Of a stretch of DNA of 64,000 bases, positions 10,467-22,304 are shown one piece after another. Below the pieces are notes generated by a model. The model saw only the letters and a list, made by a program, of their open reading frames with translations. It had not been told where the DNA came from and made no database searches. The position numbers and the translations under genes were made by a program. This DNA is from Thermoflexus hugenholtzii JAD2 (GTDB lineage Bacteria > Chloroflexota > Anaerolineae > Thermoflexales > Thermoflexaceae): positions 62,001 through 126,000 of the forward strand of contig NZ_FYEK01000075.1 in the NCBI RefSeq assembly GCF_900187885.1. The letters run 5' to 3'. Within the stretch, counting starts at the first letter, position 1, and each line of letters starts with the position of its first letter.

Positions 10467-12447
10467 GGGCTTCGGAGCGGGGAGCCATCCAGGCAGGTGG
10501 TTCCAGGAACGGCGTCTCCTCCCAGAAGACGCGCCACGCCTCCCATCCCATCCGCATCAGGAGGCGCTCCGCCTCCGAACGGGCCACAGGGGTCCATCGC
10601 CGGCGGAGGGCCATGGCCAGCAGCCGGAGGTCATCCCGACCCCAGCGTCGCGATCCCTGTAGGGCGCGCCGCCCCCAGCGGCGGGCCTCCGCGACATCGC
10701 CCCGGGCGCGCGCCGCCAGGGCGAGGACCAGAGCCGCCCGCGGGCCCTCGAAGCCGTCGCCGGCGATGGGCCAAAGGGTCTTCAGCCGATCGATCCAGCG
10801 CGCGCAAGCCGTTGGATCCCCGGTCCGCAGATAGATCCGGGCCGCCCCCGCGGCCATCCAGAGGGCGGCATCGAGATCCCGCTCCGCTTCCGCCCTCCGA
10901 TAAAGGGCCTCGATCTCCTCCTCCCAGGCCGGGGAAGGCCCCTCCGCCCACCCGCGGAACAGCGTCCAGTTCCCACGGATCCGAACGCCGAGGAGGCCGC
11001 AGCGCTCATCCTCTTCGAGGAGCGCCCACGCCGTCTCCAGAGACCGGAGGGCCCCCGGGTAGTCCCCCAGATGGCGTAGCGCCACCGCCAGGCCGTTCAG
11101 CGTGGCGGCCCGATGGACGGCCGGGGCGTCCTCGGGCAGCTGCGCAAGGGCGGTCTGGAGATGCCCGCGGGCAGCCGGGAACCAGCCCCGGCGCAGCGCC
11201 GTCAGCCCCCGCAGCCGTCGCAACAGGGCGCGGTGAAGGGGATCCAGGGGAAGAGCGACCTCCGCGGCGGCGAGGAGCCGTTCGGCGGCGGCCGGGCGCC
11301 CCCGCTGGAGCTCCAGATAGCTCAGGCAGGCGACGGCCTCCGCCCGACGCGTTGGATCCCCCATGCGGCGGGCGAGGCGGAGCATCGCCCGCAGGTTGGC
11401 CGCTTGGCGGGCCCGATCCCCCTCGAAATCCGCAACGGCATCCACGGCGCACCGCGCCCGCCAGGCCCACTCCACCGGCGTGTGTGGAGTCAACAACGCC
11501 AGGGCCGCCACCGCCCAGGGGGCCGCCTCCCGGTAAGCGCCGCGGGCCAGGGCCTCCTCCGCCGTTTGCACCAGGCCCTCCAGGAGGGCCTGACGGAGAG
11601 GCTCCACGGGGAAGGCAGGCGCCTCCCAGGCGAGCGTTTCCAAGGCTTGTAGCAAGCGACCCAGCGGGGCCGGCGGACGGATCCGCCATGGAGGCGCGAA
11701 CGCGACGTCCAGATCCATGGGGACCCCTTGGGATCGGCAGGCCCATTGATACCGTTGCCCGATGCGGCGCGCCGCTTCAAGGTCCCCGCGCGCCTCCGCC
11801 TGGCGGATCAGGAAGCGGACGACCTCCGCGCGGGTGGGCTCCTCCCGGAACAGGCGCTCCGCCCAGCGTTCCGCCTCCGGCAGGTCGCCCATCTTCTCTG
11901 CCAGGCGCCACAGGCGGGCGAGGGCTTCCAGGAATTGCTCGCGCAGCGCCTGTCGCCAGCCGACCACCCACGGGGCTTCCCAGTCCGGGAGCAGGTCTCC
12001 GGTGTAGAGGGCGACGGCGGCCTCCAGGGCCGCCCGGGCCTGCAACGGAGGAGCCCCTCGCGCCCGCTGTAGGAGCCCCGCGAAGGCGTGGACGTCCGTC
12101 CACCACGGCGTCGAAGGGGCGAAGGCGATGCGGGCCCGGTCGACCCGCAGGGGGAACCGGAGCCCGCGGAACAGGCGGCGAAGGCGATAGAGGGCCGCGC
12201 GCAGGGCGCCCTGAGCCTGCTCCGGCGCGAGATCCGGCCACAACGTCTCCGCCAGGGCGGACCGGGAGAACGCGCGGAAGGGGTGGAGGGCCAGGAACGC
12301 GAGGAGCGCCCCCGTGCGGGGCTGCCGGGCCAGCTCCGGAAGCGGGCGGCCCCGGCCCTCCACCTCCAGGCCCCCGAACAGACAAAGACGCAGGGCCGGG
12401 CGGGCGAAGACCGGCCCGCCGGCCTCATCGAAAGCGGAAGGGATCAT
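10390..12447 (-). CDS. SARP-type transcriptional regulator (winged helix + BTAD + TPR-like repeats)
   Basis: A 685-residue protein. Residues ~15-105 form an OmpR/SARP winged helix ('LRLCLFGGLEVEGRG', 'RSALAETLWPDLAPEQAQGA'). A bacterial transcriptional activation domain follows ('ALYTGDLLPDWEAPWV'), then a long helical TPR-like C-terminal half. It lacks an NB-ARC ATPase, so it is a mid-sized SARP. The start at 12447 has a strong ribosome site; in-frame ATGs further upstream are disfavoured. It is divergent from a LuxR-type gene, and heptameric direct repeats lie between them. SARPs usually activate accessory or secretory gene sets; the target here is unknown. Confidence 0.85.
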   Translation of the reverse strand: MIPSAFDEAGGPVFARPALRLCLFGGLEVEGRGRPLPELARQPRTGALLAFLALHPFRAFSRSALAETLWPDLAPEQAQGALRAALYRLRRLFRGLRFPLRVDRARIAFAPSTPWWTDVHAFAGLLQRARGAPPLQARAALEAAVALYTGDLLPDWEAPWVVGWRQALREQFLEALARLWRLAEKMGDLPEAERWAERLFREEPTRAEVVRFLIRQAEARGDLEAARRIGQRYQWACRSQGVPMDLDVAFAPPWRIRPPAPLGRLLQALETLAWEAPAFPVEPLRQALLEGLVQTAEEALARGAYREAAPWAVAALALLTPHTPVEWAWRARCAVDAVADFEGDRARQAANLRAMLRLARRMGDPTRRAEAVACLSYLELQRGRPAAAERLLAAAEVALPLDPLHRALLRRLRGLTALRRGWFPAARGHLQTALAQLPEDAPAVHRAATLNGLAVALRHLGDYPGALRSLETAWALLEEDERCGLLGVRIRGNWTLFRGWAEGPSPAWEEEIEALYRRAEAERDLDAALWMAAGAARIYLRTGDPTACARWIDRLKTLWPIAGDGFEGPRAALVLALAARARGDVAEARRWGRRALQGSRRWGRDDLRLLAMALRRRWTPVARSEAERLLMRMGWEAWRVFWEETPFLEPPAWMAPRSEALTAAPPPASRCPPTDTAAPRSAWAD

Positions 12448-12527
12448 CTCCCACCTCCCCTCCCCCTGGGTCCACGCCATTCTCCAAAACTTCACGGAGA
12501 ATTCTAACACACCGGGGCCGGGTTTTG

Positions 12528-12545
12528 TCACGATCTTATCACGAT
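12528..12545 (+). promoter_or_regulatory. heptamer direct repeats, possible SARP operator
   Basis: TCACGAT-CTTA-TCACGAT: two identical heptamers with a 4-bp spacer, an 11-bp period. This is the geometry on which SARP proteins bind. The pair sits in the 158-bp region between the divergent SARP and LuxR-type genes. A second direct repeat, CACGGAGAAT, flanks it (12493-12502 and 12549-12558). Binding is inferred. Confidence 0.45.
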
Positions 12546-12631
12546 CGGCACGGAGAATCGGAAGAGAGACCCCCCACCACAAGGCGGCTCACGGGGTATT
12601 TCATATGGGAAGCAACAACGAGGAGGATCAG

Positions 12632-13392
12632 GTGGTCGTCGGGATCGCGGAGCCCTGCCCCCTGCGTCGGGAAGCCCTCCGGAGGGCGCTGCGGGCGTTG
12701 GGATGCCCGGACCTTCGGGAGTTGCCGCTTCCGCTGGCCGGCCCGGGATGGCGCGAGGGGGAAGAGGACCTCGAGGTGGTGCTCCTGGCCTTCCGGGTGC
12801 CGGCCGGCAACGGGCTGGGCCTCTACGCCGCCCTCCGACGCGCCCACCGGCCCGTGCGGGGCGTGGTCCTGGTGGAGGATCCGGGTCCGCCCCACTGGGG
12901 GCTGGCTGGGCGGCTGGGCCTTGCGGTGCTGGCCTATTCCGAGGCCGCCGGGGAAGTCCTTCGCCGGGCGGTGCGGGGGCAGTGGGCGATGTCCCCGGCG
13001 GCCCGGAGCGCCGGGGCGGCGTGGTGGGCGGGATGGGGTGCCCGCTGGGAGGGGTTGAGCCGGATGCAGCGGGCCATCGCCTGGGGATCGCCCGCGGCTG
13101 GAGCGACCCGGAGATCGCCCAGGCCCTCTCGATCCGCCGGAGCGCGCTGCGCACCCACCTCCGACGCCTGTTCGCCCGCCTGGGACTCCCCGGCCGACAG
13201 GCCCTGCGGGCGTGGCTGCGAGCCGGGGGGCTGGAGGACCCGGCGGTGGCAGCCGGGCTTCGGGGGGAAGCGCCCTGGCCGCCCGTGGCAGGGGATCCCG
13301 ATGGCCGTGCGATGTCCCCCCTTTTGGAGGACACCGCCCGAATTTGTCCTCCTTTTTGGAGGACCACGGCTTCCGCTGGCTGGATAGGATGA
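12632..13392 (+). CDS. LuxR-type response-regulator-like protein, frame broken once as given
   Basis: The N-terminal part reads like a degenerate receiver domain ('VVVGIAEPCPLRREALRRAL'). The C-terminus is a clear LuxR helix-turn-helix ('SDPEIAQALSIRRSALRTHL', then 'RRLFARLGL'). The two lie in different frames. Adding one G to the G4 run at 13083-13086 joins them as '..MQRAIAWGIARGWSDPEI..' and gives about 253 residues. So this is a one-base loss or a sequence error rather than an old pseudogene. The GTG at 12632 follows GAGGAGG at good spacing; an ATG at 12605 is the alternative. It is divergent from the SARP gene. Confidence 0.6.
13314..13364 (+). other. two near-identical hairpins at the 3' end of the LuxR-type gene
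   Basis: GTCCTCC-TTTTT-GGAGGAC (13346-13364) is a perfect 7-bp stem. A sister copy with one mismatch, GTCCCCC(C)-TTTT-GGAGGAC, lies at 13314-13332. Both are inside the last codons of the repaired gene. Without a following T run they are poor intrinsic terminators; a small repeat is the other reading. Confidence 0.4.
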
Positions 13393-13438
13393 AAACCGAA
13401 AGCCGACCCGCGAGCGGAGGGGAAGCGAGGAGCGAACG

Positions 13439-13546
13439 ATGGCTACTCTACGATGCGGATGCTCGGTGTGCGCCGCCCTGGCCCGGGAGGTGGAAGCCCG
13501 CAACCACGGATGGCTGAAAACGCACTCACTGCGATATCATGAGTAG
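13439..13546 (+). CDS. possible small Cys-containing protein
   Basis: A 35-codon ORF (M-A-T-L-R-C-G-C-S-V-C...) preceded by AGGAG at correct spacing. Three cysteines in CxCxxC form suggest metal binding. It sits between the LuxR-type gene and the IS1182-like element, whose left end begins about 20 bp after its stop, so it could be the remnant of a longer gene. Little can be said beyond this. Confidence 0.3.
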   Translation: MATLRCGCSVCAALAREVEARNHGWLKTHSLRYHE

Positions 13547-13567: not shown

Positions 13568-15456
13568 ATGAGTTCACTGCAAAAATGGTAAGGTTCTGAT
13601 CCGAGTATGTTCGCGCAAACGGGTGAATTCTAGTATAATTTTGGAAAACCCTACCGGAGGAGAACGGAATGTTCCGAAAGAACACCCGTCACCGGCAAAT
13701 CCCTCTGACCCGCCCCGTGGATGAACGGCCCGCTCCCCTGCAAGAGCGATGGCAGAACTCCTGGGCGGAGACCTTCTATCGGGACTTCTTTTGCCGCCTG
13801 GACGAGCAACCCTTTGCCGTCCTCTATGCGGACCAGCCCTCCCGCCCCAACGTGCCGGTGAATGTTCGGGTCGGCCTGGAGTTTCGGAAAGCCGCCAACG
13901 GCTGGACCGACAAGGGGACGAGGAGATGTACAACGAGTTCTGCTATAACGTCCAGGTGCGCTAGGCCCTGGGGTGCCCTCATCCGGGCGAAGGGCGCTTT
14001 GACCTGCGCACCCTTTACTACTTCCGCGAGCGGCTGGCCCGCCATATGCAGGAGACGGGTGAGAACCTGCCGGAGCAGGCCTTTGAGCCGGTCACCGATG
14101 AACAACTGGGGGCGTTCTCCCGCAAGACCGGCCAGCAGCGAATGGATCGCACCCGGCTGGCTTCCAACATCCGCCAGATGGGACGGGTGCAACGGCTGGT
14201 GACCGTCTTGCAGCGGGTCTGGCGGATGCTCTCGGAAGAGGACCAGCCGCGCTATGCCGACCTCTTCGCCCCCTATCTGAAGGGGCACGCCGGGCAATAT
14301 GTCTATCGGCTGAAGAAAGAAGACCTGCCCATCCACCTGCAGCGCATCGGCGAGGAGATGCGCCGCCTGCTGACGGAATTGGAGGCGGTCTACGGCGATC
14401 CGCCCACCTATCACGTCCTGGCGCGGGTCTTCGCCGAGCATTTCCGCCTGGAACCGGAAGGACTGCAGGTCAAGGAGGCCGGCGAACGGAGCGCCAGCAA
14501 TCTGCCGTCGCCGGATGACCTGGAAGCGACCTATCGGGAGAAACGGGGGCAGGGCCATCGCGGCTATGTAGTCAACCTGGCCGAGACCTGCGATCCCGAG
14601 AACCCGGTGCAATGGATCACCCAGGTGCAGGTGGCACCGAACACCACGGACGACAGCGCCCTGCTGGCCGAGGCCCTCCCCGACCTGAAAGCCCGCCCCG
14701 GGGTGGATACGGTCTTCACCGATGGCAGTTATGGGAGTCCCAAGAATGATGCCCTGCTGGCGGAACATCAGGTCACCTTGATCCAGACGGCGATTCGGGG
14801 CCGGCCGCAGGATCCGGAGCGGTTCTACCGGGAGGATTTCCGAGTCCAGGCGGATGCATCGGGCCAGCCGGAGCAGGTCACCTGCCCGAAGTGGGGAGTC
14901 GGCCCGGGTGAGCGCCTCTCTTTCGGGCGAGGCCTTTCTGGCGGTCTTTGGGCCAGTCTGCGCCACCTGTGCCGGGCGGGATTGTTGCCTGGTGGCCCAG
15001 CGGAAACGGTCGGGAGCGTGGGTCTTGCGCTTCACGACCGAAGCGTTGCAGCGGGCGGAGCGTCGGCGTCGGTCCCGCCAGCATCGGGAGAGTGGGCGGA
15101 ACCTGCGGGCGGCGGTGGAATCCACGGTGCGCGGTGTGAAACATCCCTTTGCGGGAGGGAAAGCCCCGGTGCGGGGCCGCTTCCGGGTGACCTGTATGGT
15201 CATTGGGTCAGCGGCGGTGGTCAATGTCGGGCGGTTGCACCGCTTCTGGCAGGCCAGCGTGCGGCTACTGCAGGCGAAAAGGGGGCCGGAGGGAGGGCAG
15301 AAGCGGCAGCCAGGACGGGTGGAACCGCCGGGGTGTTCTTCTGTGTTTTCTTTCGTCAGGGCGATTCGGGCGCTGCGATGGCGATTCCTGGCCCTCCAGC
15401 CGTTTCAACGCCCGGCATTGGGTTGGTAAAGTTCGGACTTTTTGCAGAGGACTCAT
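13568..15456 (+). mobile_element. IS1182-like insertion sequence, 1889 bp
   Basis: Bounded by 18-bp terminal inverted repeats that match at 16 of 18 positions: left ATGAGTTCACTGCAAAAA (13568-13585); right end 15439-15456, whose complement reads ATGAGTCCTCTGCAAAAA. Size and gene content fit the IS1182 family. No target duplication is evident (left flank AACATGA, right flank AACCTTA), which suggests an old insertion or a later rearrangement. The element marks the left border of a low-GC accessory segment. Confidence 0.8.
13669..15429 (+). pseudogene. IS1182-family transposase (broken)
   Basis: Family features: N-terminal 'MFRKNTRHRQIPLT', an N-terminal DUF772-like part, 'GVDTVFTDGSYGSP' with a DDE aspartate, and a Cys-containing C-terminal part 'FGPVCATCAGRDCCLVAQRK'. 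The frame is broken three times. A shift near 13914-13917 is repaired by one more G in a G4 run. A TAG occurs at 13963-13965 where 'QVRYALG' would be expected. A second shift lies near 14885, where one extra A fits. As given it cannot make active transposase. Confidence 0.8.
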
Positions 15457-15491
15457 AACCTTAATGCCAACTTCATCAAAGGAGGTGCAAA

Positions 15492-16268
15492 ATGCGCGAG
15501 CCATATATTATCGCCTTGATGGTTATAATTCTCGTGCTGACAGTCGCTCCACCGGAGACTGTGGGGTCAATCTCATTAGAACAAAATGTTGATCAAATCG
15601 ATAAAGCGCTAATGAATTTGACCCCTTATGTCCGCTTTGCTGATGACGGGATCGCAGTCTTTGATATGAACTCTGCTAAACAAGCTGGTTTCTCGGAATC
15701 CGTCATCCTTTTAGCAGAGGAGATGGTAGCCTTCCACAATGAGTTAGTCAAGGTAGCATCCCTTGAAAAAGTGACAGATGTACGAATGATACCAGTAGCT
15801 CTCGATCGGTATCCAAGGTTGCGAGAATTGTTTGAGCGGGCTTCTCGTGAAGCCTATTTCCGCCAGGAGTCTAATAATGGCGCCGTCCCCCTCGGACTTC
15901 ACGCTTGTGGGACTTACAGCAATCCTGTGCCCAACTACACACCGCCTCGATCCACATTCGGTCCGTATGCTGATCCAGCAGGGACCCTGATTAGTTGGGG
16001 GTTTCATCACACGGCGTGGTATGCCTGTGGGCAGTTACCCCCATACGACTGTCCCAACGACTTTACCAGGGACAGGGGATATTACGGGCCATATGGCTAT
16101 TGTTGGTCACCCTGTTTCCGCGATCAAGGACGTACCACGAGTGGAAGCTCATATTTTACCATCCAATATGGAGAACCTAATCCTGAGGTTTACAAGAGCT
16201 CATGGCCTTCGTGGTGGCCATATTGGTATTGGGACACATATGTTTTCTGGTGGCACTTGACATATTAG
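15492..16268 (+). CDS. secreted Tyr/Trp/Cys-rich protein of unknown function
   Basis: 258 residues with a strong ribosome site (AAAGGAGGTGC) and a signal peptide ('YIIALMVIILVLTVAPPETVGS'). Residues 30-130 look helical. The last 120 residues are rich in Tyr, Trp, Pro and Gly with five cysteines ('GLHACGTYSNPVPNYTPP', 'YGYCWSPCF'), ending in an aromatic tail ('SSWPSWWPYWYWDTYVFWWH'). GC content is visibly far lower than the surroundings, which points to recent transfer. It starts 36 bp after the IS1182-like element. I do not recognise the family; an extracellular toxin-like or surface protein is a guess. Confidence 0.7.
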   Translation: MREPYIIALMVIILVLTVAPPETVGSISLEQNVDQIDKALMNLTPYVRFADDGIAVFDMNSAKQAGFSESVILLAEEMVAFHNELVKVASLEKVTDVRMIPVALDRYPRLRELFERASREAYFRQESNNGAVPLGLHACGTYSNPVPNYTPPRSTFGPYADPAGTLISWGFHHTAWYACGQLPPYDCPNDFTRDRGYYGPYGYCWSPCFRDQGRTTSGSSYFTIQYGEPNPEVYKSSWPSWWPYWYWDTYVFWWHLTY

Positions 16269-16336: not shown

Positions 16337-16358
16337 ATCTCTACGGAGGTTGAGAAAA

Positions 16359-16610
16359 ATGAATAGAACATCGATTAAAGTTTTCTTACACATCGTAGCT
16401 GTTTATCTCCTGATAGGCTTTGCTTACGCAGTTTATGTTCAGATCAAAGCGGACCCGAATGACCCACCACCTATGCCAGTATGGGCTCCAGGACTTTCAG
16501 TAGGTGAGCGATTAGGAGCTTTCTTACTTGGTTTCGTCCTCCCAGGGCTTTTTTGGCCATTCTTCCTTCCTCCTACCCTGTGGTGGTGTTTATTCAAGAA
16601 TGCCTGTTGA
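16359..16610 (+). CDS. small two-TM membrane protein
   Basis: 83 residues from the ATG at 16359 (ACGGAGG 8 bp upstream). Two hydrophobic stretches ('VFLHIVAVYLLIGFAYAVYV' and 'LGAFLLGFVLPGLFWPFFLP') are separated by a Pro-rich loop. Low GC like the secreted protein just upstream, so the two probably arrived together; a partner or immunity role is possible. No family recognised. Confidence 0.55.
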   Translation: MNRTSIKVFLHIVAVYLLIGFAYAVYVQIKADPNDPPPMPVWAPGLSVGERLGAFLLGFVLPGLFWPFFLPPTLWWCLFKNAC

Positions 16611-17153: not shown

Positions 17154-18041
17154 GAACTCATCTCAAAACCCTGGGTGGGTAGTATCCTCGATCTTGGGGA
17201 GCCTGATCCCGGAGGGAGGCGATGGCGTTTCGGGAGCGGAGCGAGGAGCAATGGGCGTTCCTTCCACCCCTGCTTCCTCCCAAGGCCAGGACCGGGAGGC
17301 CCCGGGCTGATGATCGCCGGATCATCCACGGGATCTTATCGGTGCGGATCACGGGTTGTCGCTGGCCGGATCGGCCTCGGCGATAGGGGGCGTATCCAAC
17401 GGCGTGGAGAGGACCCCAAGAACTTCCAGAGAAGGGGGTGTGGGAGAAGATCTTTCGGGGGCTTTGGGATGGGGGCGATGCCGAGGGGAAGGTGGCGGTG
17501 GAGGGGGTGGGGGTGGATTCCACGATGATCGAAGCGAAAAAAGGGGGGAAGCGGTGGGGAGAGAGGGACATCCGCGACGGAAAGGGACGAAAGGGCATGT
17601 TGGGGTGAATCGAAGAGGGCTTCCGCTGGGCGTGGCATGGGGGCCTGGGAATGAACATGATAGTCAGAAGTTGAAGGCTTTGCGGGAAGGGGTGCGGCTT
17701 CGGCAGCGGGGGAGGGGGAGGCCGAGGACGCGGCCCCGGGTGGTCTATGGGGATGGGGCCTATGATTCGGAGGCGATCCGGGCGGCTTTGCGGCGACGGG
17801 GGATTCGCGCCGGCATCCGAGAGAACCCGCGGGGGAGGAAGAAGGCCCAGAAGGGGAGGCCTCGTTGCTTCGATGAAAAAGCGGATCCCACGATCCGGAG
17901 GAGCGTGGCGCGGTTCTTGGCGTGGCGGAAGGGAGGGTTTCGGCGGCTTTCCTTAAAGACACGAGCGACTTCTCTCCACGTTTCAAGGCTTCGTCTACCT
18001 TGCCTGCCCCCTCATCGCTTGGAGAGTTTTGAGATGAGTTC
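17154..18041 (+). mobile_element. IS5-like insertion sequence, 888 bp
   Basis: Perfect 16-bp terminal inverted repeats: GAACTCATCTCAAAAC at 17154-17169 and its exact complement at 18026-18041. The transposase remnant inside belongs to the IS5 group. No target-site duplication is visible. GC is high, in contrast to the low-GC ORF it interrupts. Confidence 0.82.
17222..18037 (+). pseudogene. IS5-family transposase (broken)
   Basis: Starts 'MAFRERSEEQWAFLPPLLPP' and continues 'GRPRADDRRIIHGIL', 'GVDSTMIEAKKGG', 'GPGNEHDSQKL', 'VYGDGAYDSEAIRAAL' and 'LSTFQGFVYLACPLIAWRVL', all normal for IS5-group DDE transposases. Breaks: a TAG where 'RRYGAYPT' is expected (about 17383); a shift repaired by one extra G at 17593-17595; another near 17960. 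The stop lies within the right terminal repeat. Confidence 0.75.
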
Positions 18042-18314
18042 TCTGCGTGTGGAAATCATCGATGGCTCCTCTTAAGCGCGACATGGATGGATAACTCCGG
18101 AAGCCATCCGATTTCAGGATGGTATTGGGTCCCATCTATGTGCAATCCAAGTGACTTTTGTGTGGCTTATCGAAGCGATCAGGATTTCTATCTGTGGGGA
18201 ACAACTATTTATGGGGATTTTTATAGTCGAACATATTTTGGGATGGGATGTTTTCCTAATGTGGGTCCGGCACGTGGTCTCCGTGTTTATCCCTAACAGA
18301 CCGAGGAGGTGGAT

Positions 18315-19040
18315 ATGCACAAGGGACGATGGCTTCTTTTGGTGGGGATCGGGTTGTTGCTGAGCGTAGGGCGCGGGGCGGCTCCCTCCAATCCATCGGC
18401 TCCCATCCGGCTCACAGCCGCCCTGGCAAAGATCACCATCCCCATGGCCTCCCCGCTTCTATGGGCTCCGATCCCCTCGGATCGAAAAGGGGACTCTACC
18501 CCTATCGTCTGGGTGAACGGCCAGCCGATTCCTTACGAGGCCTGGGCGTTCGCCGTCGAGCCAATGCACGCGGCAGGGGTTCCCAATCCCGCAGGCGAGG
18601 CCCTCGCCCTGCTGATCCAGAACACGCTCATACAGCAGGAAGCCCAACGGCAGGGAATGCGCGCTCGTCCAGAGGAGGTGGAAGCCGCTCTCGCCCATAT
18701 GTTTGCAGCCGCGGAGCAGAGTCCAGAGGCGAAGGCGCTGCTCCAAACCCTGGCCCAGCGGCAGGGACTCCGACCGAAGGATCCCGCGTTTCGGGCGATG
18801 ATGGCGCAGGCGCTGGAACGAAGCCTGCCGGTGGCGAAACTCAACGAGGTGCTCCTTCGAGAGAGCGGCGGCGACCCCTGCGCGGCGCATCGACGGCGGG
18901 TTGCCCTGTTGAAGGAGCTCTGGAGCCGGGCGGAGATCCGGCTGGCCCCCCAAGGGGAGGCGCTGGGCCTGCAGGTGCCCCCACCGGAGGAGCTGCCGGA
19001 GGTTCGCAATCCGCCGCCGGGCTGCGAGGCCTCCCGGTGA
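18315..19040 (+). CDS. secreted SurA-N-like protein without PPIase domain
   Basis: 241 residues with ribosome site GAGGAGG, a signal peptide ('WLLLVGIGLLLSVGRGA') and a SurA/PrsA N-terminal-type domain: 'VWVNGQPIPYEAWAFAVE', then 'ALLIQNTLIQQEAQRQGMRA'. The parvulin PPIase domain normally found downstream is absent; the C-terminus is short with a Cys near the end. Its stop overlaps a GTG (GTGA, 19037-19040) that opens the Cys-rich precursor. This implies translational coupling and a dedicated chaperone or secretion role for that precursor. The fold is reasonably sure, the role is inferred. Confidence 0.7.
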   Translation: MHKGRWLLLVGIGLLLSVGRGAAPSNPSAPIRLTAALAKITIPMASPLLWAPIPSDRKGDSTPIVWVNGQPIPYEAWAFAVEPMHAAGVPNPAGEALALLIQNTLIQQEAQRQGMRARPEEVEAALAHMFAAAEQSPEAKALLQTLAQRQGLRPKDPAFRAMMAQALERSLPVAKLNEVLLRESGGDPCAAHRRRVALLKELWSRAEIRLAPQGEALGLQVPPPEELPEVRNPPPGCEASR

Positions 19041-19681
19041 GGCGGAAGCCCCCCTCCGCCGAGATGACCTTTCCCGCGCCGAGTCAGCACTCGGGTCCAT
19101 GCCCTGCAGCGCTTCCAGAACCACCCGGATCTTCAAGCCCTGGGGCTGGCCGTGCCACAAGAGGATGGAGAGTTCCCGATCGTCGTCGCCCACGAACTGG
19201 CCGATGGCAACACCTTGCTGGCGGCAGGCTGGGTTCAGAAACCGAACGAAGTGGTGGTGACGTATGCCTTCGCCAGGGGAAGGCACTGCGCATTCAGAGC
19301 GAAGTGCTGCAGATCGTTGCGGATTCGGATCGGGCCCGGCTGGCGGGGCGGAGCGTGAACGGGCGGGTCACCGCGGGGACCCAGGCGGGGGCAGGAGCCG
19401 GCGTCCAGCCGATGAGCCACTGCGCCGGATGCATCAACTGCTGGACCGGACCGTGGGAGACCGATTGCCAATCTTGCGCCTCATGGAACTACACCTGCCT
19501 GTGGAATTGCTGTGGTTGGCCATGTGGCACAAGCTGCGCAATGTGCGTGATTCGACGAGATCCTTTAGCCTGTGCGATCTGCGTTGCATGCATTGTCGTC
19601 CATTGCCCGCTGTGCGCTTCCGGGTGCTGCCTTCAGTGGGTTCATGACTGCTGCGCATGTGGTCCTTGTCCTGGACCATAA
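19037..19681 (+). CDS. Cys-rich peptide precursor A (22 Cys in last 88 residues), frame broken as given
   Basis: The C-terminal 88 codons (from 19415) are open and extraordinary: 22 cysteines in CxxC-like spacing among Trp, Gly and hydrophobic residues, e.g. 'SHCAGCINCWTGPW' and 'NCCGWPCGTSCAMC'. The upstream part lies in other frames ('ALQRFQNHPDLQALGLAVPQ', 'FPIVVAHELADGNTLLAAGW', then 'ALRIQSEVLQIVADSDRARL'). Adding one base to each of three runs (C6 at 19049, G3 at 19093, G4 at 19276) gives one ORF of about 215 codons from the GTG overlapping the previous stop. It resembles a leader plus Cys-rich core, as in bacteriocin precursors. No export signal is seen. Function inferred. Confidence 0.55.
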   Translation: MRRKPPSAEMTFPAPSQHSGPCPAALPEPPGSSSPGAGRATRGWRVPDRRRPRTGRWQHLAGGRLGSETERSGGDVCLRQGKALRIQSEVLQIVADSDRARLAGRSVNGRVTAGTQAGAGAGVQPMSHCAGCINCWTGPWETDCQSCASWNYTCLWNCCGWPCGTSCAMCVIRRDPLACAICVACIVVHCPLCASGCCLQWVHDCCACGPCPGP

Positions 19682-19700
19682 ATGGCCCCAGGAGGTTCCG

Positions 19701-20066
19701 ATGTCCTTTCGCCTGACGGCTCGAAGTCCAGGATGGCGCATGGCTCTGTTGCTTGGGATCTGGGGGAGCGCGCTGGCCTATGCCTTCCTCGGCCCAACAG
19801 GAGATAAAGTGCTGGAAAGCGCAGCAATCGTAGCGCTGGCTGCCCATACGCTGGCGTGGGACGCTCCGGGACGTCGGGTCCGACTCCCGTTGGCTCTGCA
19901 CCTCGGGATCCCTCTGGGGCTCCTCATCTTGGCGGGAGCGCGGGCTCCCAACTGGATCGCTCTGCCCCCCTGGCTGCAGATGGTGGATGGCTTCTGGGTG
20001 GTTGCAGCCCTTGCGACCTACGGGGTCAGCCTTCTGGCGCGCGTTCGCCTCAGGCCCCTGAAGTGA
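19701..20066 (+). CDS. four-TM membrane protein A, partner of precursor A
   Basis: 121 residues, start at 19701 with GGAGG 5 bp upstream, only 19 bp after the Cys-rich precursor. Four hydrophobic segments: 'WRMALLLGIWGSALAYAFL', 'LESAAIVALAAHTLAW', 'ALHLGIPLGLLILAGA' and 'FWVVAALATYGVSLLARV', with a basic C-terminus. Small multi-TM proteins directly after a peptide precursor are typical immunity or transport helpers. The second precursor in this operon is followed by a protein of the same layout. No family recognised. Confidence 0.65.
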   Translation: MSFRLTARSPGWRMALLLGIWGSALAYAFLGPTGDKVLESAAIVALAAHTLAWDAPGRRVRLPLALHLGIPLGLLILAGARAPNWIALPPWLQMVDGFWVVAALATYGVSLLARVRLRPLK

Positions 20067-20158
20067 TCGACCAAAAGCTGTGTGTGGACACATAGCTCCG
20101 TGAGATCTGGCCACGCATCGGCTGTCCGGCCGGCGCCTCCAGAGCTGAGGGGGAGCGG

Positions 20159-20962
20159 GTGTGGGTCTTCACGGATCTCTCGATGCGGGCGCGTCTCGTG
20201 CAGGTCCTGGGCCCGGTGCGGGCCCTGCGGGTGGCCCAGGCGGTGGCCCGGATGGGAGGCCCCGTGCTCGGGGTGGATTGGGGAAGGCGAGATTTCCTCC
20301 GCCGGGCTGGAGGAGCCCTGCTCGGCCTTCTGGCGCTACGAAACCTAAGGGCTCCGCTTCGCTCTGGGACAGCTAGGCCCCCCATCCCTTCCCAATCCCG
20401 GCCGCCCTCCCGCCGACGGGTGCCACGGGGGGAACCGATCGATGAAGCGCTCTTCCGCCGGGCCCAGGCCCAATTCCGCCCGGAGCGCTGGAACGCCGAA
20501 CCCGACTGGAACGAAGTGTGGCTGTATACTTCCGAGCAGGGTTCTGCTCTGGTCACACCACTATCGACATCCGGCCTATCGCATCGCTTCCTGACCGCCC
20601 CAGTCCGCGGGGAGGAGATCCTAGCCCTGTATGTGGCAGAGATCGAATGGCGAGGGGGATCTACAACCAGCGCTCGGATGCGGCTGTATGACCTACGAGC
20701 GAAAGTGTTATTGGACGCTGAACTTGAGAATGGCCGGGCGCGCCGCCAAGCACCGGTTCAGTCCTCCAAGGCACCGGGTCATGCCAAGGACGTGGCACGC
20801 TCAAAGCAGGATGTCTGCTGCAACTGGCTGGCACTGAATTTCTGCATTGATGCGGCCACAATTGAGTGCGTGGGTTGTTGTTTCACAAACCCCGCGCTAT
20901 TTGCTGCCTGGTTAGCCGCCGGAACCGCAGCCTGCTTTGCTGCCAACTGCTGGTTCTGTTAA
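20159..20962 (+). CDS. Tat-exported Cys-rich peptide precursor B
   Basis: 267 residues from GTG 20159 (GAGGGGGAGC upstream). A twin-arginine motif RRDFLRR (43-49) is followed by 'AGGALLGLLALRNL', a classical Tat signal with a 42-residue n-region; later starts at 20183 or 20249 would shorten it. A beta-rich middle ('EEILALYVAEIEWRGG', 'ARMRLYDLRAKVLLDAELEN') leads to a 50-residue tail with nine cysteines among hydrophobic residues ('CCNWLALNFCIDAATIEC' ... 'CFAANCWFC'). Tat signal, long propeptide and Cys-rich hydrophobic core is the architecture of halocin-C8-type bacteriocin precursors. Homology is not claimed; the layout is what is seen. Confidence 0.7.
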   Translation: MWVFTDLSMRARLVQVLGPVRALRVAQAVARMGGPVLGVDWGRRDFLRRAGGALLGLLALRNLRAPLRSGTARPPIPSQSRPPSRRRVPRGEPIDEALFRRAQAQFRPERWNAEPDWNEVWLYTSEQGSALVTPLSTSGLSHRFLTAPVRGEEILALYVAEIEWRGGSTTSARMRLYDLRAKVLLDAELENGRARRQAPVQSSKAPGHAKDVARSKQDVCCNWLALNFCIDAATIECVGCCFTNPALFAAWLAAGTAACFAANCWFC

Positions 20963-20980
20963 GGCGAGAGGAGGCACATT

Positions 20981-21319
20981 ATGGACCAGGCCTCGATTCC
21001 CCTTCCCTTGCGGTGGAGTCTTCTCTTGCTGAGCCTCACTCTGGGCGGGATGCTCCTTATGAACGGACTGGCCCTCGGCATCCCGTGGCTTCCTGTGTTC
21101 AGTCTGGCAACCTTCCTGCTGGCGGCGGTTTTCCTTCGATATGGCAATACGCGGATCAGCACCGGCGTGGGGCTGGCCCTGCTGCTGGCCGGATACATCG
21201 GGATGCTAATCGGCGGGCTGCTCCGACAGTTCCAGACGCCGCTGGAAACCGTGGCCATCTTGAGTGTGGGAGTGATGGTCCTGGGCCTGTGGGCGGACTG
21301 CCGCAAGCGATCCCCATGA
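20981..21319 (+). CDS. four-TM membrane protein B, partner of precursor B
   Basis: 112 residues, ATG 20981 after GAGAGGAGG, 18 bp after precursor B. Four TM segments: 'WSLLLLSLTLGGMLLMNGLA', 'FSLATFLLAAVFLRYG', 'GVGLALLLAGYIGMLIGGLL' and 'VAILSVGVMVLGLWADC'. Size and topology mirror the membrane protein after precursor A, though the sequences are not obviously alike. An immunity or export role is inferred from position. Confidence 0.65.
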   Translation: MDQASIPLPLRWSLLLLSLTLGGMLLMNGLALGIPWLPVFSLATFLLAAVFLRYGNTRISTGVGLALLLAGYIGMLIGGLLRQFQTPLETVAILSVGVMVLGLWADCRKRSP

Positions 21320-21390: not shown

Positions 21391-21639
21391 GTGACAAGGA
21401 GGATGAAAAACGCGGCGTGGATCCTGGGGATGGCGGTTCTGGGGCTCTGGGGCGCCTGCCAGCCCCTACGATCCTCCCCGCCCGCTTCCCCTTCCACTCC
21501 GAGGGGAACCCTTCCGCCGGCGACCTCCCCCACCGTTTCGCCGGGCGTCTCCGGCGCAGGGGGCGCGCCGGCCTGCCGCTTGGAGAGGTGGCGATGCGAC
21601 GGATCGGGCGTTGGGTCATCGGGATCGGATGGATGCTGA
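21391..21639 (+). CDS. small lipoprotein-like hypothetical protein
   Basis: 82 residues, GTG start after AAGGAGGGGAAG. A hydrophobic N-terminus ending in Cys ('ILGMAVLGLWGACQ') and a Ser/Pro/Thr-rich remainder suggest an exported lipoprotein, although the lipobox is imperfect. It overlaps the next lipoprotein-like start by 46 bp. Either a very small surface protein or the front of a gene broken by frame errors. Confidence 0.4.
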   Translation: MTRRMKNAAWILGMAVLGLWGACQPLRSSPPASPSTPRGTLPPATSPTVSPGVSGAGGAPACRLERWRCDGSGVGSSGSDGC

Positions 21640-22304
21640 TCCTGGGGTGTCGGGCGGGAACGCCCGCGCCGATCCCAACGGGTCCCCCACCCTTCGTGCT
21701 CCCCTCCCGCCTTCCCCGACGCCAACCTGCCCGAGCGGGGCCGAGGCATCCGCCGCGCCCTCATTCCCTGACCCGGCCGGCTGGTCCTGACAGACGGAGA
21801 GGCGGGCCGGAGGGGTCCTGCGCCGGCTGACGCCGAGGGCCCCGGCGCCTCTACCTGCTTCCCTTTGACCGCTCCCTGGTCGTCTGCTGGATCGGCCGGG
21901 GGTGCACATCGATGCGGATGATCCTGGATCGGAATGGAGATGCCCATCGGCGCAGCCCCGTGGTTTTCCTGTTTTGCTTCATCCTGGACGTCCGATGGAT
22001 CGGGCCGTGGGATCGGCCCACGCGGGCTCCGGATGGGCGGTGGGTGGGGGCGGAGAGCCTGTGGGCGGTGGCCCTGCGGGTGGAGACGGTAGTGTGGCTT
22101 CCCGCGCCCCCGCCCCGGCCGCCCCGGGCCGAGCTCTCGCCGCCTCCCCGAAGTCAACCTCCTACCCCGGTTCCCGAGGTGCCGGAGGCATTTGACGAGG
22201 TGAGGACCTGGCGGATCCCCCTGGAATGGGAGACGCCGACGGCAGGGTCGGTTCACTACCGACGGGTGGGGGATCCGATTCCCAGCCGGGATTGGGCTGG
22301 ATGA
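21594..22304 (+). pseudogene. degenerate lipoprotein-like gene
   Basis: ATG 21594 opens 'MRRIGRWVIGIGWMLILGC', a lipoprotein signal, followed by Pro-rich linker sequence. The continuation that looks coding ('GPRRLYLLPFDRSLVVCWIG', then 'PDGRWVGAESLWAVALRVE' and 'EVRTWRIPLEWETP') is in another frame and ends at 22304. I could not place a single clean repair, so the region is called degenerate. It abuts the convergent mfd gene. Confidence 0.4.

Follow-up and report, generated by a model that had tools for sequence, protein, structure and literature searches.

Positions 18315-21319 of a 64,000-nucleotide stretch of the Thermoflexus hugenholtzii JAD2 genome (GCF_900187885.1, contig NZ_FYEK01000075.1, positions 62,001-126,000 of the forward strand; the whole stretch is called the window below) encode two cysteine (Cys)-rich C-terminal tails, each followed by a small membrane protein. 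The organism falls in the GTDB lineage Bacteria; Chloroflexota; Anaerolineae; Thermoflexales; Thermoflexaceae. A preliminary description had proposed an undescribed operon of five genes here. All five frames exist, but gene 2 is frameshifted and gene 4 truncated, and the five do not make one intact operon. The region is better described as two damaged tail/partner cassettes, which probably belong to a polymorphic family of bacteriocin-like Cys-rich peptides exported by the twin-arginine translocation (Tat) pathway, with membrane proteins as immunity or export partners. The N-terminal thioredoxin-like domain of intact relatives, the multi-copy modularity of the family and the decay of gene 2 go beyond the preliminary description. 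The genus was represented by nine Thermoflexus genomes, that of the window included; genomes and loci are cited by G and L numbers. The features of the region are as follows (TM, transmembrane).

18315..19040, + strand: gene 1, secreted SurA_N_3-like protein (Pfam SurA_N_3, E 2.4e-7)
19068..19283, + strand: gene 2 propeptide remnant (RVHALQRFQNHPDLQALG...), 49% identical to the propeptide of L064:6449-7525
19286..19681, + strand: gene 2 22-Cys tail, an orphan/frameshifted cassette, 60% identical to its G003 homologue
19701..20066, + strand: gene 3, membrane protein paired with the 22-Cys tail; hydropathy gives 3 TM segments, and a distant homologue lies beside the same tail type in G003
20147..20320, + strand: segment shared with other carrier modules, covering the end of the thioredoxin-like domain and the twin-arginine signal; its limits are the sharp edges of DNA homology to more than 30 other copies
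20159..20962, + strand: gene 4, in which a truncated carrier module with the Tat signal precedes a beta-rich propeptide and a hydrophobic 9-Cys tail (tail at about 20813-20959)
20981..21319, + strand: gene 5, 4-TM protein paired with the 9-Cys tail; in G006 and G001 it likewise adjoins a tail of this type

A carrier module with exchangeable C-termini

Residues 1-84 of gene 4 have counterparts at two further loci of this genome; there, the matching part comprises the second half of a thioredoxin-like domain and a Tat signal and is followed by other tails. With the module as query, this carrier was found in 8/9 Thermoflexus genomes, often in clusters and with up to 17 matches per genome. Intact copies share one plan: a thioredoxin-like domain of about 100 amino acids (aa) with a DxGCxxC motif, then an internal Tat signal of the RVAQAVARMGGPVLGVDWGRR type, then one of many unrelated C-termini, a beta-rich propeptide lying between the twin-arginine signal and the tail in intact Cys-tail relatives. 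CxxC is kept in 32/40 Thermoflexus copies and the twin arginine in 34/36. The features of a Tat substrate (twin-arginine motif and hydrophobic stretch) are present in the family, and L065 passes the Tat model TIGR01409 (17.2 vs. 16.7 bits); gene 4 of the window carries the motif without a match to a hidden Markov model.

The C-termini behind the module include several Cys-rich tails (8 to 24 Cys), which are often hydrophobic, as well as a 'GELWEGFLLLPPGAP' domain and a matrixin metalloprotease. Within one complete genome the modules are 80-89% identical in DNA while their C-termini are unrelated, and DNA homology to the window ends right after the Tat signal, true gene 4 relatives excepted; similar modules, unrelated C-termini and a sharp homology edge together are the signature of module/tail recombination. 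Tail/TM cassettes also occur as orphans, at L064:8146-8983 (in tandem) and L060.

Fusions of the module to the 'GELWEGFLLLPPGAP' domain were seen in L052, L053, L057, L058, L049, L047, L035 and L091; in several cases a Cys-rich open reading frame (ORF) with an M23-like HxH motif follows, and the two such ORFs that were scanned had no Pfam match. L051:8826-9734 combines the start of a thioredoxin-like module and a signal-like stretch with a matrixin (M10) domain (Pfam E 1.3e-11). At L043:580-1839 the carrier precedes a 52-residue tail with 24 Cys (46% Cys).

The gene 4/gene 5 cassette

Gene 4 is a 267-aa frame with the twin-arginine motif GRRDFLRRAGG (GRRDFLRRAGGALLG) and a 9-Cys end, both as first described; half of the thioredoxin-like domain is lost. 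DNA homology to the other copies starts sharply at 20147, inside that domain, and the first (CxxC) half carried by relatives is missing. Tat signal, propeptide and tail are all open, and the candidate starts at 20159 (GTG) and 20183 (ATG) would plausibly yield a shorter Tat precursor. Because the Tat signal is kept, gene 4 and gene 5 may still be working. The tail (50 aa) has a grand average of hydropathy (GRAVY) of 1.18. Its Cys count is little higher than chance would give (9 in 50 aa vs. at most 8 in shuffled windows); we regard the tail as real because homologues and selection support it. Over its 267 aa gene 4 is 62% identical to a G004 protein (L047:3868-4653). Gene 5, correctly described as a 4-TM protein of 112 residues, adjoins the gene 4 tail in G006 (91% identity for the tail, 86% for gene 5) and in G001 (53% and 38%); in G004 the TM protein after the gene 4-type tail is dissimilar. 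No match to gene 4 was found in phage records (tblastn) and none to the carrier module in viral contigs, and there is therefore no sign of a viral origin.

The gene 2/gene 3 cassette

The tail of gene 2 (89 aa, 19412-19681, in frame with 19286-19681) contains 22 Cys, of which 19 lie in a 70-aa stretch; five first-order Markov shuffles of the window gave at most 9, which places this tail far outside chance. The tail is thus as real as first described, and the intact precursor is not. The propeptide frame (19068-19355) and the tail frame differ, with a 16-nucleotide deletion between them relative to L064:6449-7525, the intact, single-frame counterpart in G003. The carrier module is gone, with both its thioredoxin-like (DCC) part and its Tat signal missing; the carrier domain of L064:6449-7525 itself has no CxxC. 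Gene 2 is a frameshifted orphan cassette, and it is probably inactive or a donor cassette. Gene 3 has the 121 residues and the membrane character first ascribed to it, with three TM segments in place of four.

Pairing and selection

A small multi-TM gene (product of at most 180 aa with at least two TM segments, within 330 bases downstream) follows 17/29 bacterial Cys-tail precursors, as against 9/502 control frames under the same criterion; the 17/29 count is inflated by orthologues, and about 15 independent cases remain. In 5 more of the 29, a large permease (ABC/FtsX-like) lies downstream. The association also holds for the tail types of the window, which recur beside TM genes elsewhere: the gene 4 type in G006 and G001, and the gene 2 type in G003, the one genome among nine where such a tail (60% identity) adjoins a distant gene 3 homologue (32%). 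The pairs of tail and TM protein are real, and a precursor followed by a TM gene is a general feature of the family; the early proposal of two secreted Cys-rich peptides, each with its own membrane partner, is supported.

The ratio of nonsynonymous to synonymous substitution rates (dN/dS) lies between 0.13 and 0.55 for the tails and gene 5, and between 0.18 and 0.26 for another tail type of the family. Compared with G006, it is 0.38 for gene 4 propeptide plus tail and 0.25 for gene 5; between the gene 2 tail and its G003 homologue it is 0.13, with dS saturated. These values indicate purifying selection on the tails and on gene 5, and the peptides have been kept as proteins regardless of the state of the window copies.

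Distribution and family models

Outside Thermoflexus the module is scattered over other Chloroflexota (Herpetosiphonaceae, Roseiflexus, Roseilinea, AL-N1 and other Anaerolineae), with a few metagenome-assembled genomes filed elsewhere. Of 301 Chloroflexota genomes sampled evenly, 6 carried it, the genome of the window and one congener included. Most of these relatives have the same plan, with tails that are hydrophobic and Cys-rich. Streptomyces plasmids encode proteins that begin with the same front end and are annotated as 'bacteriocin fulvocin C-related'; these are the closest annotated relatives. Their C-terminal half matches NF033852 (E 1e-28 to 4e-30; L103 105.6 bits, L105 100.7), and the thioredoxin-like/twin-arginine front end lies outside that model, which covers the C-terminal half only. 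Neither the window genes nor the Thermoflexus proteins match NF033852 (at least 35 bits, whole protein). The Streptomyces-type front is present in intact Thermoflexus and other Chloroflexota relatives; gene 4 retains its second half and the Tat signal, and gene 2 neither. A further likeness is to DCC1-like oxidoreductases (PF04134), which share a D-x-x-C-x-x-C start and, by prediction, a thioredoxin-like fold, with all matches of relatives below the gathering score (14 to 19 bits, best 19.0 vs. 27.8) and none among the window proteins.

The preliminary description compared the region with halocin C8, and the architecture is indeed alike. Homology was tested and not shown. TIGR04449 (cut-off 24 bits) matched no window protein and none of 400 Chloroflexota genomes (0/400), and L065 reached 10.8 bits, below the cut-off. 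A profile comparison of a Chloroflexota propeptide-plus-tail alignment with haloarchaeal precursors gave a probability of 49% with only the Tat/propeptide start aligned, and homology to halocin C8 is not proposed. Weak, sub-threshold C-terminal matches of one Anaerolineae relative to halocin_C8_dom and of one Herpetosiphonaceae relative to Gpos_C8_like may point toward the bacteriocin side and do not prove membership. Pfam and NCBIfam scans of the proteins of the region returned SurA_N for gene 1 only.

In an AlphaFold2 (AF2) model of the AL-N1 relative (L084) the N-domain is predicted with a confidence score (pLDDT) of about 90, with CxxC at the start of helix 1; Foldseek returned thioredoxin/glutaredoxin-like chains at a probability of at least 0.9, but with E 0.02-0.1 and Z at most 5.8. 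In the same model the propeptide (145-280) is beta-rich and predicted with confidence, and the tail is unstructured and poorly predicted. The AF2 model of gene 4, built from two sequences only, shows a similar propeptide of a helix followed by antiparallel strands (pLDDT mostly 70-90). Fold searches of the propeptides against the PDB gave no strong relative (Z at most 6.3 for L084 and 5.4 for gene 4); PepSY/BLIP-like periplasmic proteins were among the weak matches and are not used as evidence.

Comparison with known systems

In the Streptomyces plasmid members of the fulvocin C-related group, a DxxCxxC thioredoxin-like front, a twin-arginine signal, a propeptide and a Cys-rich C-terminal peptide follow one another as in the family described here; in contrast, no small TM partner was found next to L103 or L105, and no multi-copy family of swapped tails was seen. 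Halocin C8 (TIGR04449; HalI propeptide plus HalC8) resembles gene 4 in its Tat signal, long propeptide and hydrophobic Cys-rich C-terminus, and a short gene follows in L106 and L108, but the thioredoxin-like domain is lacking. The family also has the architecture of polymorphic toxin systems, in which a constant N-terminal trafficking module is joined to variable C-terminal effectors, with an adjacent partner gene and orphan cassettes (Zhang et al., 2012; PMC3482391). The tails here are small Cys-rich peptides rather than enzymes, and their toxicity is putative; neither Tat export nor a thioredoxin domain is mentioned in that paper. Among disulfide bacteriocins, pediocin PA-1/PedC and sublancin/BdbA have a dedicated CxxC thioredoxin-fold accessory protein, and such trans-acting proteins raise potency, as for PedC (PMC4919988). 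Whereas the oxidase is a separate protein in those systems, the thioredoxin-like domain is here part of the precursor itself and precedes its Tat signal. Among open-licence papers, none was found that links DUF393/DCC, fulvocin and bacteriocins in this way.

Proposed mechanism and alternatives

The Tat pathway exports folded proteins. On the simplest reading, the thioredoxin-like domain (DxGCxxC) may help to oxidise the Cys-rich tail before or during export, and the folded, probably oxidised precursor would leave through Tat by means of its internal twin-arginine signal. Removal of the beta-rich propeptide would then release a hydrophobic, disulfide-rich C-terminal peptide that could damage competing cells, probably at the membrane, while the adjacent small multi-TM protein would confer immunity or aid export. 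Recombination of tail/partner cassettes behind the conserved carrier could generate new specificities. Toxicity and immunity are suggested by the architecture, the pairing and the parallels with fulvocin and halocin. More tentatively, the family may represent a kind of peptide weapon not described before: the precursor's own thioredoxin-like domain would oxidise the tail in cis in the cytoplasm ahead of folded Tat export, and shuffled tail/immunity cassettes would form a genus-wide repertoire.

Several observations weigh against reading the family as bacteriocin-like. The same module carries non-Cys tails (the 'GELWEGFLLLPPGAP' domain and the matrixin metalloprotease), and the carrier is a general export module, not one specific to bacteriocins. 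Copies that lack CxxC (8/40, and also the L064 precursor) speak against an oxidase role, as does the presence of the module on tails with few Cys. A TM partner is absent from some precursors of Streptomyces and Thermoflexus, the copies in the window are damaged, and none of the window proteins has a match among curated models for bacteriocins, immunity or Tat.

The thioredoxin-like domain, the carriage of enzymes such as matrixin and the tail type with 46% Cys would also suit secreted or surface Cys-rich domains with structural, redox or metal-binding roles, the TM proteins then being membrane anchors or electron-transfer partners. We consider this unlikely, given that neither the window tails nor those of relatives match a metallothionein or ferredoxin family in Pfam or NCBIfam (the unrelated families that the preliminary description had named), that no cytochrome model matched either, and that strong hydrophobicity (GRAVY ~0.6-1.5), a low His content and a roughly neutral charge characterise most tails; conflict peptides would better account for the great diversity of the tails, their patchy distribution and the orphan cassettes. 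The tails might instead be signalling or pheromone-like peptides and the TM proteins processing or receptor components, with a response by the REC/LuxR-type regulator that heads some arrays and lies upstream of 8/37 module starts. That is highly improbable when no histidine kinase was seen beside the precursors, the small TM proteins are diverse and change in step with the tail type, and precursors and tails are large for pheromones.

It is also conceivable that the whole region consists of decaying remains, gene scraps between transposase remnants that have no present function, as the frameshifted and headless gene 2, the truncated module of gene 4, the cut-off module head at 13457-13543 and the DDE_Tnp_1 remnant at 17356-18072 might suggest. 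Yet the reading frames of gene 5 and of the gene 4 propeptide and tail are open and conserved, comparison with G006 shows purifying selection on them, and the Tat motif of gene 4 is intact; decay of the whole region is thus quite unlikely, and a pair of damaged cassettes of a bacteriocin-like family remains the preferred reading.

Gene 1 and the flanking sequence

Gene 1 is SurA_N_3-like, and no PPIase domain was matched by Pfam, as first described. Among the nine congeneric genomes it has one further copy (G002, 36% identity), which is preceded by a 'GCFPNxGP...RVYP' secreted protein in the same order as in the window (18087-18296) and has no Cys-rich gene beside it. Gene order thus indicates that gene 1 forms a unit with the preceding secreted protein and not with the Cys-rich cassettes. 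Because the SurA-like gene belongs to a separate two-gene unit, the single operon served by a shared chaperone is not supported, and that role was rejected. The upstream features are as follows.

12314-13543: frameshifted regulator remnant of REC/LuxR type plus a cut-off carrier-module head; several congeneric loci have regulator and module intact in this order
13457..13543, + strand: cut-off head of another carrier module (GCSVCAALAREVEARNHGW...), found by tblastn with the module query (E 8e-6), with the decayed REC/LuxR-type regulator just upstream
13669-15458: transposase-like frameshifted stretch without a Pfam match, flanking the cassettes
15492-16268: secreted aromatic-rich protein, no family match
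16350-16610: small membrane protein following 15492-16268, no family match
17356-18072: DDE_Tnp_1 transposase remnant (Pfam E 5e-13), flanking the cassettes
18087..18296, + strand: secreted-protein remnant ending in GMGCFPNVGPARGLRVYP; the same order of protein and SurA-like gene occurs in G002:C206 (L110)

The proteins at 15492-16268 and 16350-16610, neither of which had a match in the Pfam and NCBIfam scans, may be a further secreted-protein/partner pair. After gene 5, the short stretch 21572-21700 recurs in G004 (L046:4792-4921) at 88% DNA identity.

Implications

If the proposed reading is true, thermophilic Chloroflexota would hold a large store of heat-stable antimicrobial peptides, rich in disulfides, that go undetected by the Pfam and NCBIfam models tested, and the fused thioredoxin-like/Tat carrier provides a sequence handle for finding them (DxGCxxC ... 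RPGWRWEP ... GRRxFL). The carrier would also link the bacterial fulvocin-type and archaeal halocin-type architectures, and it would offer a testable point on how peptides with many disulfides fold before Tat export.

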